A stretch of 59,958 bases of DNA, from positions 1-59,958 of IMG/VR virus record IMGVR_UViG_3300033996_002205; one strand, 5' to 3'. A program made the translations under genes and the position numbers. Positions 2,872-59,866 of this stretch are shown here, piece by piece. The first letter of the stretch is position 1, and every line of letters starts with the position of its first letter. The notes beneath the pieces were generated by a model. It was not told the origin of the DNA. It saw nothing but the letters and a program-made list of their open reading frames with translations, and did not search any database. This DNA comes from a virus.

Positions 2872-4815
2872 TCAATTAATATTTGGTCTGGTTTTTATTT
2901 TTCTCAAATCTTGACCATGCATGGTATTTCTTGGATCACCACCAGCATCGACAGTAGATTTAATCGCTCTCATTTTTTTAGATTTTAACTTAGAGCTTTG
3001 TCCAACATAAGAATTTGGTCTTTTGAGATAATCACGCTCATGTTTAGCAGCCTTCTTATTTACTTTATCACTCGGAAATTCTTTTTTTTCCTCACCAAAG
3101 ATTTCTTCGACAATACTATGTCTCCACTCTTCACTCATATTTGTCATAATTACTAATGCATTCTGATTGGTATCAGCATAACCTTCGGCAACTAGGTACT
3201 CAAGAATATAATCAAAATTATCTACAAATTCTTCTGCCATTTTAGTAGTATAAGTTCCTGCTTTTCCAGTTGAAGGATTTGTCCATTTAAAAGTACCTTT
3301 CGACCCTTTTAATCTTCTTTCTGTTGCAAAAGCAGCATCAAAACTCTTTCTTACATCTTCACCAGTAAATTTTGTCTTTGGTTTTTCGATATTTGATACA
3401 CCTGATGGGGATGTTGCTTTTTGTTGTTTCTTTTGCTGCCTTTCAGAATCAGCAGCGGCTGCTCCAGCTGCAGCAACTCCAATTGCTGGACCAAGTAAGG
3501 ATTTTTTAGATGGTTTTGCTCCACCAGTTCCAGGTCCAGATCCAGTTGCATATTTTTCTAAACCTGGATATCTCATATTTCCAGTTTTTTCTGTTGGTGA
3601 TAAAGTTGCACGAACAGTATGAGTTAATCCACCTCCTCTTGGTGGTTTACCTCCACCAGTAGGTGGTTCTGGAGTTTTTTGGGATGGTTTGGTTGCTGGT
3701 TTAGTTGAAGGTGCTACAACGCTTCTCTGTGCTTGTCCAGGAGTAGTTTTAGATTTGGATGAAGAATCTGATCCCCATGCTGGTTTTGGTGCTGCAGTAG
3801 ATTTTGGTAGTTTTCTAGTTCCTACAATACCACCACCAATCATTTTATTTAATCTTTGAATTTCCTGCCCTTGAGGTGATAATCCAGTTTTTAGAGTAGT
3901 AGTTGTTGCTAATTTTCCTCCTGTTGTTGCTGAAGGTGTTGGTTTTGGAAGTGCTTCAGGTTTAAATTTTGGTTTTGGACCTCTAGTTGTTGCTAATTTT
4001 CCTCCTGTTGTTGCTGAAGGTGTTGGTTTTGGAAGTGCTTCAGGTTTAAATTTTGGTTTTGGACCTCTAGAAGTTTGACCAGCAGCAGGAAGTGCTTTTG
4101 GAGCAGATTTAGGTACAGATGCCGCAACAGTTCTGACAATAGGAGTGGTCATTTGCTTTAAGGCATTAGTAACAGGTTTAAGTCCTGCCATATGACCCAT
4201 ACCTAATGCTAAGCTTGTTGCTAAAGTATCAGTAATTCCTCGTTTTGCAACATAACTAGGAGTCATTCTTCCAGATTTTGCTGCTGGTTTTGATGCTGAA
4301 GTAGGAGTTGCTGCTTTTTTTTGAGCAAGCATTTCACCATACCTATTTGCCTTTTCTGGTTCTGGTGGTTTTCTTGCTGCTCTTGCTGCTTGTGTTCTAG
4401 CAATATCATCAGTCTTAGCAGCACCACTTAATGCTTTTCCTTTAGAACTTAATCCAGTTGGTCTAAGTCCTTTCTTGACCATTGTTTTGGTAGAAAGTCC
4501 TCTTGCAGCGGGCGTAGTTTTTTTAAAAAGACCACCAGCAAATTTTAATCCTTTCGATATGGCACCTGCACTAACTTCAGTAATATAAGATTCATCTAAT
4601 AATTCTTCTTGAAGACAATACTCAAATACATCATCTACAAAAGTTTCTACAAGATCATTATAAATGATTAAGTTTGCAAAATATTCAGTTTCTTCAATAC
4701 TTTCAAAAATATTTGCATCTAAACAAAATTCTACAATATCATCAAATATATTTTCTTGCGTATAATATATTGATTCGTATACATCCCTAATATCTTTTAT
4801 ATTATATGAATCCAT
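2872..4815 (-). CDS. Low-complexity, probably virion-associated protein with repeats
   Basis: A 647-aa protein in three parts. Residues 1-75 are acidic and hydrophobic (FDDIVEFCLDANIF, ETFVDDVFEYCLQEELLDE). Residues 80-480 are Ala/Lys/Pro/Thr-rich, disordered in appearance, and include a perfect 28-residue tandem repeat (TRGPKPKFKPEALPKPTPSA plus 8 residues). Residues 530-575 hold a module ILEYLVAEGYADTNQNA followed by MSEEWR, shared almost unchanged with the 168-aa gene at 7116-7622. The end is basic. It has a T4-type late promoter, which argues for a structural or internal head role. Sites such as ITE/VSAG resemble the L/I-x-E cleavage consensus of the gp21 protease. The role is inferred; I cannot name a function. 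Confidence 0.7.
   Translation of the reverse strand: MDSYNIKDIRDVYESIYYTQENIFDDIVEFCLDANIFESIEETEYFANLIIYNDLVETFVDDVFEYCLQEELLDESYITEVSAGAISKGLKFAGGLFKKTTPAARGLSTKTMVKKGLRPTGLSSKGKALSGAAKTDDIARTQAARAARKPPEPEKANRYGEMLAQKKAATPTSASKPAAKSGRMTPSYVAKRGITDTLATSLALGMGHMAGLKPVTNALKQMTTPIVRTVAASVPKSAPKALPAAGQTSRGPKPKFKPEALPKPTPSATTGGKLATTRGPKPKFKPEALPKPTPSATTGGKLATTTTLKTGLSPQGQEIQRLNKMIGGGIVGTRKLPKSTAAPKPAWGSDSSSKSKTTPGQAQRSVVAPSTKPATKPSQKTPEPPTGGGKPPRGGGLTHTVRATLSPTEKTGNMRYPGLEKYATGSGPGTGGAKPSKKSLLGPAIGVAAAGAAAADSERQQKKQQKATSPSGVSNIEKPKTKFTGEDVRKSFDAAFATERRLKGSKGTFKWTNPSTGKAGTYTTKMAEEFVDNFDYILEYLVAEGYADTNQNALVIMTNMSEEWRHSIVEEIFGEEKKEFPSDKVNKKAAKHERDYLKRPNSYVGQSSKLKSKKMRAIKSTVDAGGDPRNTMHGQDLRKIKTRPNIN
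3901..4068 (-). repeat. Perfect 84-bp tandem repeat, two copies
   Basis: Units 3901-3984 and 3985-4068 read the same, encoding a 28-residue Pro/Lys/Thr-rich repeat within the 647-aa protein. Identity at third codon positions shows a recent duplication. Confidence 0.9.
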
Positions 4816-4884: not shown

Positions 4885-7035
4885 TTAAGCAACCAACTCA
4901 ATAAACTCACCCAGAACTTTTTTGTTCATTTTCTTGGTTTTCAGACTCTTCACAAAGGCACTTTTAATTTGTGACTTGGAAGCATCTTCAGACACAGAGA
5001 ACTCAGTATCTTGAGAAAGGGCACTTCCAGAAAGACCAAAGTAAATGTGATACCCAGCATTTTTGAGAGAAAATGCCTTTTCTTTCTTCCAACTATTCAT
5101 CGCCTTGTCGTATTGATCACCATAATACCCACAGTAACGACGGATAAAGGAACCATGATCCCGACTCTCAAGAACACGAATACCGATGAAGTTAATATCG
5201 GTAAATTTATCCCGAAGATTGCGAAGAAGAATATTGGTAATATCCCACCAGTTACCACCAAGATTATAGGTGTTTCCAGTTTTACGATCCCGAAGAATCG
5301 TGGTGGAATCTAAACTACATGTTCCAAGATAGGGTTCGTTTTCCCACCTACGATTGAATTCCTTGTGATAATTAATGGCCTGTCCTTCACCATCAGTAAG
5401 AACAACACACTGAACCTTCTGAAGTTTATTCTCCTTCTGAAATTTGGGAAGAATTTCATGAAGGGAAATCATCGCCTCATTCAGAGGAGTTCCAGAAAGA
5501 GTGAGACCAGGTGGAATGGGATAGGAATAACCCCCAAGAGACTTAGCAACACGAAAGATGTTCTTCATTTGCTCCTCAAGAGTTTTACCATTTACTTTAC
5601 TGGTAAAGAGATTCATCATAGAGAACCATTCACCAATTTGAAGAAGACCATTACGCTTCTGATAGGCAGTTTGGCGAGTCTTACTAACCTTACCGTCTTC
5701 ATAGGAAACAACAGGATAGTCATTAGTGAAGGCATAAACCTCAAAAGGAATAGCAACCTTCTTACAGAACCACATCAGGTTATAAAGTTGCTTGATAGTA
5801 TCAAGCATAACGTCTTGCATAGATCCAGACCAATCCAGAATAAACACAAGACCGTGATTCTTACCGTTGGCAAGAGTAGTCACTTTCTTGAACAGATCCT
5901 CATTATACTTGTAGGTATGAAGTTTAGAACAGTCCAGAATACCAGTTCGGGCAGTTGTGGCACGGGCATAAGAATCTGCTGCCTTACGACATTCAAACTC
6001 TTTTACCAGATAGTTGACTTCCTTTTGAGCATTACGCTTGAACTCAAGAAACTGCTTATCAAAATGATCAAAAGACACATAAGAAGAATTCTCTTCCCAA
6101 GTCTTCTTACATTTATCGTGAATTTCCTTGTTAGAAACGATAATCTGCTTCAGATCAAGTTTAGGAATCTCCACATAGGTGTTCTCCTGAACATTATGAG
6201 AAACAAGATTCTTAAGAGATTCCTCAAGAGAATTCATCGTTTTCACTTCAGGATCATTCGTTTCTCCACCTTCGGAAGAAGTCTTATCGGGTTTTTCAGT
6301 TTTTTCAGAAGAAGTTTTCTTCTCACTTTGCTCACCCTGATCTGAATCAGGGCGATTATTACCATCAGTTTCTTCAGCATCATTCTCACCCTCTTCCAGA
6401 TTCTCAAAATCAGAGGCACCAGAATTAGAAGAAGACCCGCTGGTTTGATTTTCAGGAGAATTCATATCATCAACAGATTCTTCCTGTTTGTCTTGCTTAC
6501 AGAAATTATACAAAACTTCTGCGGCATCAAGAACCTGTTCAAAGGTTTCGGTGACACCAATCATATCAACAATTTCTTGCTCATTAGCATTAAAATCAAT
6601 CTTCAGGAAGTTGCCAACCTTGAAGTAAAGATTTACCTTGTCGGCAAGATTATAGTTGGTGACATTATCATCACCAATCAAGAAGAAATCTTGATCCTGA
6701 AGTTCCTTATAACCACTGTAGAAGGTCTTGGCAAGACCAGGATAACGACGCTTCATCAGTTTCTCAACACGCACATCCTCCACCACATTCACAAACTGCG
6801 GAGGAATCTTGCGGTCTTTGATCCAGTCCTCATCGGGAGTTTCAAGAGCATGTCCAACTTCATGCCCCACCAGAAGGTCATAGACGGTACTACTTGCCTT
6901 TTCCCACATAGGAAGCGTGAGCACACGGGTGTGAACATTAAAGCAGGCAGTCTCTACCTTCTTGTGCTCAACCACAAGGTCTTCGGTAGCAAGCAGGCGG
7001 GCAAGGTGGGACTTGATTTCGTGATTGACGGTCAT
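4885..7035 (-). CDS. CobT-like VWA-domain protein with HExxH motif
   Basis: A 716-aa protein. The N-terminal domain has GHEVGHALE with HEVGH at 58-62. An acidic Ser/Glu/Asp-rich linker spans about 190-265. A C-terminal von Willebrand A domain starts near 395 with the MIDAS sequence FILDWSGSM (around 398-406) and continues through VVLTDGEG. This layout matches CobT-like cobaltochelatase subunits and is often annotated as peptidase in cyanophages. VWA proteins of this kind are partners of MoxR/CobS AAA+ ATPases, and the phage cobS gene lies next but one downstream. Whether it is a chelatase subunit, a protease or a chaperone adaptor cannot be decided from sequence. It has its own promoter and terminator. 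Confidence 0.83.
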   Translation of the reverse strand: MTVNHEIKSHLARLLATEDLVVEHKKVETACFNVHTRVLTLPMWEKASSTVYDLLVGHEVGHALETPDEDWIKDRKIPPQFVNVVEDVRVEKLMKRRYPGLAKTFYSGYKELQDQDFFLIGDDNVTNYNLADKVNLYFKVGNFLKIDFNANEQEIVDMIGVTETFEQVLDAAEVLYNFCKQDKQEESVDDMNSPENQTSGSSSNSGASDFENLEEGENDAEETDGNNRPDSDQGEQSEKKTSSEKTEKPDKTSSEGGETNDPEVKTMNSLEESLKNLVSHNVQENTYVEIPKLDLKQIIVSNKEIHDKCKKTWEENSSYVSFDHFDKQFLEFKRNAQKEVNYLVKEFECRKAADSYARATTARTGILDCSKLHTYKYNEDLFKKVTTLANGKNHGLVFILDWSGSMQDVMLDTIKQLYNLMWFCKKVAIPFEVYAFTNDYPVVSYEDGKVSKTRQTAYQKRNGLLQIGEWFSMMNLFTSKVNGKTLEEQMKNIFRVAKSLGGYSYPIPPGLTLSGTPLNEAMISLHEILPKFQKENKLQKVQCVVLTDGEGQAINYHKEFNRRWENEPYLGTCSLDSTTILRDRKTGNTYNLGGNWWDITNILLRNLRDKFTDINFIGIRVLESRDHGSFIRRYCGYYGDQYDKAMNSWKKEKAFSLKNAGYHIYFGLSGSALSQDTEFSVSEDASKSQIKSAFVKSLKTKKMNKKVLGEFIELVA

Positions 7036-58039: not shown

Positions 58040-58378
58040 TTACTTCGCCCAAGTTACGCGGATAAACTTATCACCCTCTGCAACTTTAGCGATTCCAGTT
58101 GCAACCTCTTTATCCTTTTCTGCCTTAAGGTTAATCTCAAGAACCTTAATCGCGGGAGAATACGTAACTTTATCGCGGGAGGTTAGTGATACCAACCCCC
58201 AGCAAGTGCGCTCAGAGGTTACATCAGCGGCCATCATGATGCCAGCGATCTCATCACGCAGACGCTTGCATTCTGCCTCCGCCTCTTTACACTTAGCGTC
58301 AGCAGTTGCGAGATGCCCCATAAGGGTTTCGAGCGTATCCGAAACGATGGCGGCGGGCAGATCGTAGGAGTTTGCCAT
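58040..58378 (-). CDS. 112-aa coiled-coil hypothetical
   Basis: The N-terminal half is a coiled coil (HLATADAKCKEAEAECKRLR, DEIAGIMMAADV), then a beta-like section with CWGLVSLTSRDKVTYSP and a Lys/Glu-rich region ending DKFIRVTWAK. Three cysteines are present. The layout resembles small phage host-takeover or nuclease-modifier proteins, but I do not recognise a family. Codon use is more GC-rich than the virion genes. A promoter-proximal repeat lies upstream. Confidence 0.65.
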   Translation of the reverse strand: MANSYDLPAAIVSDTLETLMGHLATADAKCKEAEAECKRLRDEIAGIMMAADVTSERTCWGLVSLTSRDKVTYSPAIKVLEINLKAEKDKEVATGIAKVAEGDKFIRVTWAK

Positions 58379-58468: not shown

Positions 58469-58508
58469 CCAAACGGCAACCCCATTCATCAGCAACGCTA
58501 ATGGGTCA
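58469..58508 (-). promoter_or_regulatory. Upstream element, copy B (before the 112-aa gene)
   Basis: On the minus strand TGACCCATTAGCGTTGCTGA and then TGCCGTTTGG, about 100 bases upstream of the 112-aa gene. The same two blocks, with one mismatch in the first, stand upstream of the 116-aa gene. Likely shared regulatory DNA; no clear -10 is seen in this copy. Confidence 0.6.
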
Positions 58509-58573
58509 AACGCTTGACGGATGGGCGGTTGGCGTGGTTGGAATCGCACCAGCGTCAGGCAGTTTGTATAAAG

Positions 58574-58673
58574 AACTCAAACAGTGCTAAATGAATTAAA
58601 CTCAAACAGTGCTAAGTATAAAAAACTAAGACAGGACTAAATGTAGAAAACTAAACCACACCACTGACTAACA
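58574..58673. repeat. Four 25-bp tandem repeats
   Basis: Units start at 58574, 58599, 58624 and 58649, an exact 25-bp period. The first two share AACTCAAACAGTGCTAA; the third is AACTAAGACAGGACTAA; the fourth keeps AACTAAACCAC only. The decay along the array suggests an old array with the first two conserved. Confidence 0.85.
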
Positions 58674-58698
58674 TTCTACACTTAATCCTGAGTTAGTT
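58624..58698. repeat. Imperfect 25-bp inverted repeat containing array units
   Basis: Unit three (58624-58648) is repeated as its reverse complement at 58674-58698 with 21 of 25 matches, enclosing unit four as a 25-base loop. It would form a long hairpin in RNA or single-stranded DNA. Confidence 0.75.
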
Positions 58699-58764
58699 CT
58701 TTATGCTCAGGAAAAGTATAAAGAATAAAGAACTACTTAAGATTCATTCTCTATTCTTTATACT
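58695..58764. repeat. Nested inverted repeats
   Basis: AGTATAAAGAATA (58715-58727) pairs perfectly with TATTCTTTATACT (58752-58764). Overlapping it, AGTTCTTTAT (58695-58704) pairs perfectly with ATAAAGAACT (58725-58734). The two hairpins are mutually exclusive, so alternative structures are possible. Confidence 0.8.
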
Positions 58765-58776
58765 TTCATTCTTCAT

Positions 58777-58911
58777 TCATTTAACTAACTCTGCAGGTGA
58801 TCCACAAGACTTATAAAATGCAATCATTCTTTCTGCCTCTTGAATTGTGGTGAATGATTGTGTGCGCCATTCACAATTATTGTAAGGAGTTTGATAACGA
58901 ATGATGAACAT
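58777..58911 (-). CDS. 44-aa hypothetical
   Basis: The product begins MFIIRYQTPYNNCEWRTQSF and continues TTIQEAERMIAFYKSCGSPA ending ELVK. Strands followed by an amphipathic helix give a compact small fold. The ordered codons and plausible fold favour a real gene over an accidental frame. A longer overlapping frame in another phase (58824-59018) looks non-coding. Function unknown. Confidence 0.6.
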   Translation of the reverse strand: MFIIRYQTPYNNCEWRTQSFTTIQEAERMIAFYKSCGSPAELVK

Positions 58912-58944: not shown

Positions 58945-58991
58945 AATCTCGTCGAGATCATGTGAACTTGTGTGCGCGTCTCGACGAGATT
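58945..58991. repeat. Perfect 13-bp inverted repeat of palindromic arms
   Basis: AATCTCGTCGAGA (58945-58957) and TCTCGACGAGATT (58979-58991) are perfect reverse complements, and each arm is itself a near palindrome (TCTCG, one central base, CGAGA). The centres are 34 bp apart, about three helical turns, between the 62-aa and 44-aa genes. Either a paired operator or a strong RNA hairpin. Confidence 0.85.
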
Positions 58992-59233: not shown

Positions 59234-59356
59234 TCAGAGGCGACCGTTGCGCCCCAGTGCCGCCCAGGTTGCTGCTGGTGCTGAGTGAATCTTAACGCCA
59301 TTGCGGACCCAGACCAGTTGGCGAGTCTGCAGGGAGGTGGCAGGTGAGAGAGTCAC
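59234..59356 (-). CDS. Possible 40-aa protein with GTG start
   Basis: The frame (M)TLSPATSLQTRQLVWVRNGV and KIHSAPAATWAALGRNGRL begins at GTG 59354-59356. The frame stays open upstream to 59443 but that part overlaps the 116-aa gene end and looks non-coding. The sequence is balanced and protein-like, and GC-rich relative to its neighbours. Not recognised; a weak call. Confidence 0.4.
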   Translation of the reverse strand: MTLSPATSLQTRQLVWVRNGVKIHSAPAATWAALGRNGRL

Positions 59357-59430
59357 GGGTGGTGTGGTGTGAACTGAGAGAATTCTACAGGATGGGTGGG
59401 GACCGTTGCCGATCCCCTTGTGCCAGTGCC

Positions 59431-59781
59431 TCAATTGGCACATTTCACAGTTTCAAAGCATTCCACCCATTCTGCTTCGGGATATAAGAATGCAACGCAA
59501 TCATCAGTGAATGATGTTACATCTCCGGGAAATGCAGTATAGGTTGTACGCTCTTCACAATAATCATCCCACTGTGCATCTTGCCATTCAATTTCATTCC
59601 AACAAGATTCTTCATTCTTTACATTTTCATTCATCGTATTAAATTCTTCCCTGGTCATCACTACCTCTTCCAAAATGATGCGATGGCGTACTACAGTAAC
59701 CAAATTATCATTTGAGGCAGCATCAATATCCCATCCAAGATTTGCAGCAATTGCAGGATGAATTTCTGTCGGTTTAGTCAT
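59431..59781 (-). CDS. 116-aa acidic hypothetical
   Basis: Start at MTKPTEIHPAIAANLGWDID, since the frame upstream (24 more codons) covers promoter DNA. The C-terminal half is acidic with many aromatic and cysteine residues (WNEIEWQDAQWDDYCEERTT, DDCVAFLYPEAEWVECFE). Cytoplasmic, no membrane segments. Possibly a DNA-mimic or host-modifying early protein by charge alone; no family recognised. Confidence 0.65.
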   Translation of the reverse strand: MTKPTEIHPAIAANLGWDIDAASNDNLVTVVRHRIILEEVVMTREEFNTMNENVKNEESCWNEIEWQDAQWDDYCEERTTYTAFPGDVTSFTDDCVAFLYPEAEWVECFETVKCAN

Positions 59782-59805
59782 TGTGTAATGTGGTGAACTG
59801 ATACC

Positions 59806-59834
59806 AGTATTGCCCCAAACGGCACCAGAGTCAA
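59806..59834 (-). promoter_or_regulatory. Sigma70-like promoter for the 116-aa gene
   Basis: On the minus strand TTGACT (59829-59834), a 17-base spacer and AATACT (59806-59811), 25 bases before the ATG. The -35 is five of six. It overlaps the second block of upstream element copy A. Confidence 0.55.
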
Positions 59835-59866
59835 GGGGTTGAACGATCAGCAATGCTAATGGGTCA
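59815..59866 (-). promoter_or_regulatory. Upstream element, copy A (before the 116-aa gene)
   Basis: TGACCCATTAGCATTGCTGA followed by TGCCGTTTGG on the minus strand, matching copy B at 58469-58508. A TTGTCAATCCCC stretch just upstream recalls TTGTCAAGCCC at the gp55 promoter. Confidence 0.6.

Follow-up and report, generated by a model that had tools for sequence, protein, structure and literature searches.

The window, the whole 59,958-nt stretch of DNA analysed here, covers part of the genome of a T4-like freshwater cyanophage; among named phages it stands closest to Synechococcus phage S-SRM01 and other Kyanoviridae. Its long genes all lie on the − strand, and neither tRNA nor tmRNA genes were found in it. 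The element under study is non-coding and lies between two short ORFs, gene X and gene Y, neither of which has a Pfam or PHROGs family, inside a GC-rich (0.42-0.49) island of short genes; the adjoining structural genes are AT-rich (0.28-0.33). Elsewhere, at 3900-4070, the window carries an exact 84-bp (28-codon) tandem duplication, two copies at 100% identity. The features of the locus are as follows.

58040..58378, − strand: gene Y, a 112-aa ORF that follows the element in the gene direction
58487..58543, + strand: early-class promoter-like site directed into the array, with the upstream motif CATCAGCAACGCTAATGGGTCAAAC (58487-58511), −35 TTGACG (58514-58519) and a weak, putative −10 TTGGAA (58538-58543)
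58574..58623: optional 25-nt array, whose two intact units (AACTCAAACAGTGCTAA...) are similar to the 5' arm of HP1
58612..58710, − (gene) strand preferred: HP1, the conserved core, an imperfect hairpin of ~35 bp with compensatory pairs among 44 distinct homologues; predicted arms 58612-58648 and 58674-58710, predicted inner 17-bp stem 58632-58648/58674-58690
58649..58673: HP1 loop, with an invariant core at 58654-58668 reading AACCACACCACTGAC on + and GTCAGTGGTGTGGTT on −
58713..58766: HP2, a 20-bp hairpin with arms 58713-58732 and 58747-58766, loop CTACTTAAGATTCA and an outer stem common to HP1
58777..58911, − strand: gene X, a 44-aa ORF whose stop lies just before HP2 in the gene direction
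59357..59375, − strand: shared early-gene leader AGTTCACACCACACCACCC ahead of the GTG start codon at 59356, with 10 nt perfectly antisense to the HP1 loop; a candidate target or counterpart of that loop
59782..59799, − strand: second leader, AGTTCACCACATTACACA, before the ATG at 59781 of a 116-aa ORF

A conserved hairpin behind an optional array

The first-pass annotation had described the patch at 58565-58775 as an exact array of four 25-bp units followed by an inverted copy of the third and two mutually exclusive inverted repeats. The periodicity is real, with a TRF score of 89 for a 25-nt array at 58567-58656, but its exactness is not: the units at 58574 and 58599 share 20 of 25 positions, the first 17 being identical, and unit three (58624) matches them at only 18 of 25. 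Unit four (58649) can hardly be called a repeat, at 11-14/25 identity to the others; it is the loop of HP1. The inverted copy of unit three at 58674-58698 is present (21/25), and the two overlapping inverted repeats (58695-58704/58725-58734 and 58715-58727/58752-58764) are exact. What had been missed is the dominant structure, HP1, together with the near-perfect 20-bp HP2. In the predicted fold, HP1 takes its 5' arm from unit three, its loop from unit four and its 3' arm from the inverted unit three, and the inverted repeats exclude each other because HP1 and HP2 use a common outer stem sequence, AGTATAAAGAA. The predicted minimum-energy fold places HP1 and then HP2 in sequence on both strands, with z scores against dinucleotide shuffles of −7.55 on the − strand and −4.99 on the + strand.

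HP1 recurs in ~90 IMG/VR contigs, each time at the same locus of T4-like freshwater cyanophages. A scan with a loop pattern matched 89 contigs against ~12 expected by chance (as estimated from the size of the collection); with further scans the total came to 91 hairpin-bearing loci. There is one copy per contig or record, in records of up to 175 kb, and the weaker matches within those records are the hairpin read from the opposite strand, the adjoining neighbourhood or borderline scores. Wherever a glycosyltransferase-like gene family was seen, in 61 loci, it sat ~2-4 kb upstream on the other strand; the gene that adjoins the element varies from locus to locus. A mobile repeat was rejected on the grounds of the single, syntenic locus, and an earlier proposal of a recombination or packaging site finds no support, the place being fixed and single-copy.

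Across 44 distinct HP1 sequences, standard pairs occupy 96.5% of pair cells, and both sides have changed in a compensatory manner at 11 of the 17 stem pairs. The covariation score of 0.380, against 0.141 for shuffled data, was reached by none of 500 shuffles, and shifting the partner by a single base lowers pairing to ~40%. Stems have even been replaced whole while the loop stayed unchanged, giving CCATTGAGAAGT, CTTTGAGGATTG and CTTTGAGGTGTG types; differing stems with an identical loop occur in contigs L001, L017, L254 and L283. These data are evidence that the HP1 fold is under selection, with conservation of the RNA type. The idea of a structured non-coding RNA with two folds is supported in its first half, through the compensatory changes and the ~90 loci; the paired element is the previously unnoticed hairpin, not a two-state switch. 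Since the loop had itself served as a search key, the scan was repeated with patterns from the stem only. The loop core at 58654-58668 was intact in 36 of 37 contigs found through the 3' arm and in all 18 found through the 5' arm, and the sole exception to the exact loop, contig L242, still keeps AACCACACCAC.

The array behaves differently. Its units number from 0 to 13 per locus in relatives: AACTCAAACA units are missing from 68 of the 88 loci with adequate upstream sequence, and the remainder have 1-13. The array 17-mer matched 20 IMG/VR contigs, 16 of which are this same locus, with variable unit number in a 25-nt register. Unit number differs even among contigs of identical hairpin sequence (L006, L008, L014), and the hairpin is kept throughout, also in relatives with the same flanking genes, where the 25-nt period is often missing. 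The hairpin, not the array, is the core of the element.

The loop and a leader shared by island genes

The early genes of the island carry a leader directly 3' of the −10 element, of the form ...TATACTGATCTC-AGTTCACACCACACCACTGA-ATG, and the invariant loop sequence AACCACACCAC(TGAC) is the same as the sequence found just 5' of their starts (−10...AGTTCACACCACACCACTGA-ATG). On the + strand the loop is sense-identical to these leaders; on the gene strand it is their antisense, perfectly complementary over 8-13 nt. In some genes the loop sequence AACCACACCACTGAC includes the leader up to the last base before the ATG, as in contigs L119 and L192, whose leaders hold ACACCACTGAC-ATG verbatim, and in the isolate S-SRM01 a leader AGTTCACACCACTGAACC-ATG lies 5' of an annotated start. 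With the element itself excluded, the gene strand has 249 copies of CACACCAC and the opposite strand 17, most of them followed by an ATG 5-20 nt downstream. This leader is confined to the island: in five 40-kb neighbourhoods, all gene-strand copies of CACACCAC within 20 kb lie no more than ~6 kb from the element, with the exception of one copy 2-4 kb on the element's other side.

Predicted duplexes point the same way. The antisense loop pairs below −12 kcal/mol with 42.6% of island starts and 9.9% of distant genes, while 40 shuffled loops reach a mean of 21.7% and a maximum of 40.2% of island starts. Inside the window the best predicted duplex is with the leader at 59782..59799 (−16.8 kcal/mol), and the match between leader and loop is poorer here (10 nt) than in relatives. 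In L254 and L242 the variant loops look like leaders of the same contig, an anecdotal observation that is suggestive only.

Since a conserved hairpin loop copies or complements the leaders of the early genes around it, the element is probably an RNA that controls those neighbouring viral genes as a group. That it acts through the leader match, from whichever strand, we regard as likely on this sequence evidence.

Promoters and other repeated sites of the island deserve separate mention. Early promoters in the window (59782-59840 and 58487-58543) and in relatives have a common extended upstream motif, GATCAGCAATGCTTATGG-TCAAAC..TTGAC. Another group has TGGCACAAGG, with a GGGG..CCCC inverted repeat in place of the expected −35. 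A palindrome, TCTCGWCKAGA, forms clusters with a spacing of ~25-50 bp; it stands at 58945-58957 and 58979-58991, 5' of the 44-aa gene, and is likewise present in S-SRM01 (L139, ~4908-5010), in the marine Prochlorococcus phage P-SSM2 (L236, 2067-2170) and in freshwater relatives (L244, L246, L248). This repeated non-coding site, also conserved, may be an operator. Two further candidates were rejected for the element. One was a late promoter: TATAAAGAA resembles the T4 late motif, but the phage's own late motif TATAAATA occurs 7 times on − and 0 times on +, and TATAAAGA is enriched on neither strand. The other was mimicry of a host sequence: 84,980 bacterial and archaeal genomes yielded 35 exact loop matches, in unrelated taxa, where ~60 are expected by chance (an estimate).

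Which strand, and what kind of element

Folding energy was not used to choose the strand, because the raw difference between strands equals that of shuffled sequence and the composition-controlled z scores of 57 elements (−8.17 on +, −7.96 on −, p = 0.20) favour neither. The only structural evidence is the wobble pattern. Transition mismatches in HP1 appear as C-A on the + strand, that is as G-U on the − strand, 53 times against 10 for the reverse; these counts include related sequences, and as distinct events over the whole stem the ratio is ~15:5. The inner stem has ~7 distinct events of C-A on + and none of G-U on +, and HP2 shows a similar tendency, 7 to 4. In the window the 17-bp inner stem is uninterrupted on −, with two G-U pairs, and has two C-A mismatches on +. 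This pattern favours the gene strand to a moderate degree.

Could the gene-strand hairpin be an antisense regulator? HP1 would be transcribed on the − strand during infection, presumably in RNA downstream of gene X, and would fold into an imperfect hairpin of ~35 bp whose open loop presents 5'-GUCAGUGGUGUGGUU-3'. The loop would pair in trans, over 8-13 nt, with a leader that many island early genes share, AGUUCACACCACACCAC(UGA)-AUG, which has no Shine-Dalgarno sequence; such pairing might cover the ribosome entry site or alter the fate of the mRNA, so that the island early genes would be repressed or otherwise co-ordinated jointly, the sign of the effect being our supposition. The array and HP2 would be accessory parts. 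Two mismatches, one G-G and the other C-A or A-A, are found again and again at constant distances from the loop. The stem interruptions may be comparable to those seen in natural antisense RNAs, which escape RNase III; conserved mismatches that remain C-C or U-U on the − strand count against the antisense reading. No dedicated − strand promoter for the element was found. The antisense model is nevertheless preferred, since it agrees with the wobble pattern and invokes no unknown protein, and we give it a probability of roughly 0.42. Still more tentative is its broadest form, in which the island uses the leader AGUUCACACCACACCAC-AUG as an address instead of a Shine-Dalgarno sequence, and a single hairpin RNA reads it to control translation of an otherwise unrelated set of genes.

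The promoter-like site at 58487-58543 suggests the + strand instead. A + transcript from this site could be a decoy that mimics the leaders, its array and loop exposing CACACCACTGA to titrate a leader-binding factor, as CsrB does with CsrA. The site (GATCAGCAACGCTAATGGGTCAAAC..TTGACG) is of the early class and directed into the element, its upstream motif and TTGAC being identical to those of neighbouring early-gene promoters, and near-consensus sites occupy the equivalent place in L189 (TTGACA-17-TATAAT) and L116 (TTGACA-17-TAGACT). A + strand TTGAC site accompanies all 20 array-bearing loci against 21 of the 68 without an array, and in S-SRM01 a homologous site is directed at an HNH gene. 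On this strand the loop reads the same as the leaders, and B-type array units (TCAAACACCACTGA) are leader-like too. However, a recognisable + promoter is missing in about half of the loci, most loci have a single loop copy, the leader-like B units occur in some arrays only, and on the + strand C-A mismatches are preferred over G-U. We know of no leader-binding protein, and consider the decoy rather unlikely. Both strands may be transcribed.

A site acting as DNA would suit the AT-rich, repetitive sequence, the nearby promoter and the single, fixed place that the element occupies in each genome. It could be an iteron origin, a protein-binding site or a cruciform, and its inverted repeat could be maintained by template-switch correction from arm to arm; the compensated pairs do come with very few one-sided (G-U) intermediates, as such copying might leave them. 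Yet copying would erase mismatches, and conserved positions stay mismatched throughout differing stems, and the loop matches mRNA leaders. The first-pass proposal of origin iterons, in particular, is not supported: the array is optional, being missing from most loci, and no GC-skew switch lies at the element within 20 kb in five contigs. We judge a DNA-level role improbable as a whole. Slimmer still are the chances that HP2 and HP1 merely stabilise, cleave or terminate the − strand mRNA of gene X, with no role in trans. Their position immediately past the gene X stop codon and the U-rich arms on both strands would suit a processing or 3'-end element, but no intrinsic terminator was called over 58565-58775, HP1 and HP2 included, the loop is invariant and the adjoining gene is not constant among loci. 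Least credible is a homing or modular-shuffling cassette for gene exchange, PeSL-like or an HNH landing site, which the short-gene-rich island and the HNH endonuclease gene at the equivalent place in S-SRM01 would favour and which the single copy, always at one syntenic locus with no copies at others, speaks against.

Named phages vary at the homologous place. No HP1 homologue was found in S-SRM01, S-T4 or S-BM1, and DSL-LC03 and P-SSM2 gave borderline, unsyntenic scores only, probably by chance. In S-SRM01 (L139) the HNH gene, at 5022-5459, stands exactly at the hairpin's place, behind the homologous promoter-like site. DSL-LC03 (L234) has, syntenically at 5150-5360, a promoter TTGACG..TAGAAT and a perfect AT-rich hairpin different from HP1, with loop GTGTGAATT, which may be a diverged counterpart of the element. 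Unannotated gaps of ~1 kb or more lie in the same region of S-T4 (L235, 7176-8189), P-SSM2 (L236, 4264-5223) and S-BM1 (L237, 4033-7585).

Comparison with known regulatory systems

Little is known of regulatory RNAs in T4-like cyanophages, and most of the small early genes of these phages are orphans whose control is obscure. With its sequence link to a common leader, the conserved hairpin offers a concrete, testable handle on how such gene islands are switched as units, and the element and leader together mark a clade of freshwater cyanophages in metagenomes. If the model is true, one RNA would address many leaders, an unusual arrangement for a virus.

Antisense hairpin RNAs are known from plasmids and phages, among them those of the CopA/RNAI type, P22 sar and lambda OOP. 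HP1 is like them in its long, bulged stem and in a loop complementary to a translation-initiation region; it differs from them in that its loop is predicted to match the leader of many genes rather than one cis-encoded target. Decoy RNAs such as CsrB and RsmZ show copies of an mRNA-leader motif, and CsrB titrates CsrA. The element likewise holds a leader motif in its loop and, in some loci, also in its repeats. Unlike them, it has another motif, usually one loop copy and no identified leader-binding protein.

No Rfam family matches the window at gathering score, the element giving sub-threshold hits only. One of these is RF00238 (ctRNA_pND324), a counter-transcribed hairpin RNA, on the + strand at 58686-58775; at 26.8 bits, far below the gathering score of 45, and E = 0.088 the match is at chance level and no homology is claimed. 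A functional analogue is T4 RegA, a general repressor of early leaders that contends with the ribosome for about 30 start regions on early mRNAs (PMC3014915). RegA itself is a protein and its sites are A+U-rich, whereas the present case has an RNA hairpin and a C/A-rich leader. The PeSL cassettes of T4-like phages, discussed in the S-PM2 'ORFanage' paper (PMC4503421) and distinct from the element, also combine an early promoter with stem-loops in an ORFan-rich region. The element is unlike PeSLs in its fixed locus, its promoter opposed to the genes, its stems with no terminator-like call and its conserved loop; a PeSL cassette would be expected in many copies at different intergenic places, whereas the element has one per contig. 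The S-SRM01 genome paper mentions no non-coding, intergenic or promoter features (PMC8557907), and no description of the element was found in the open-licence literature, where absence is weak evidence of novelty. The element would appear to be new as an RNA element while belonging to a familiar general kind, antisense or decoy; its match to a common leader is unusual.
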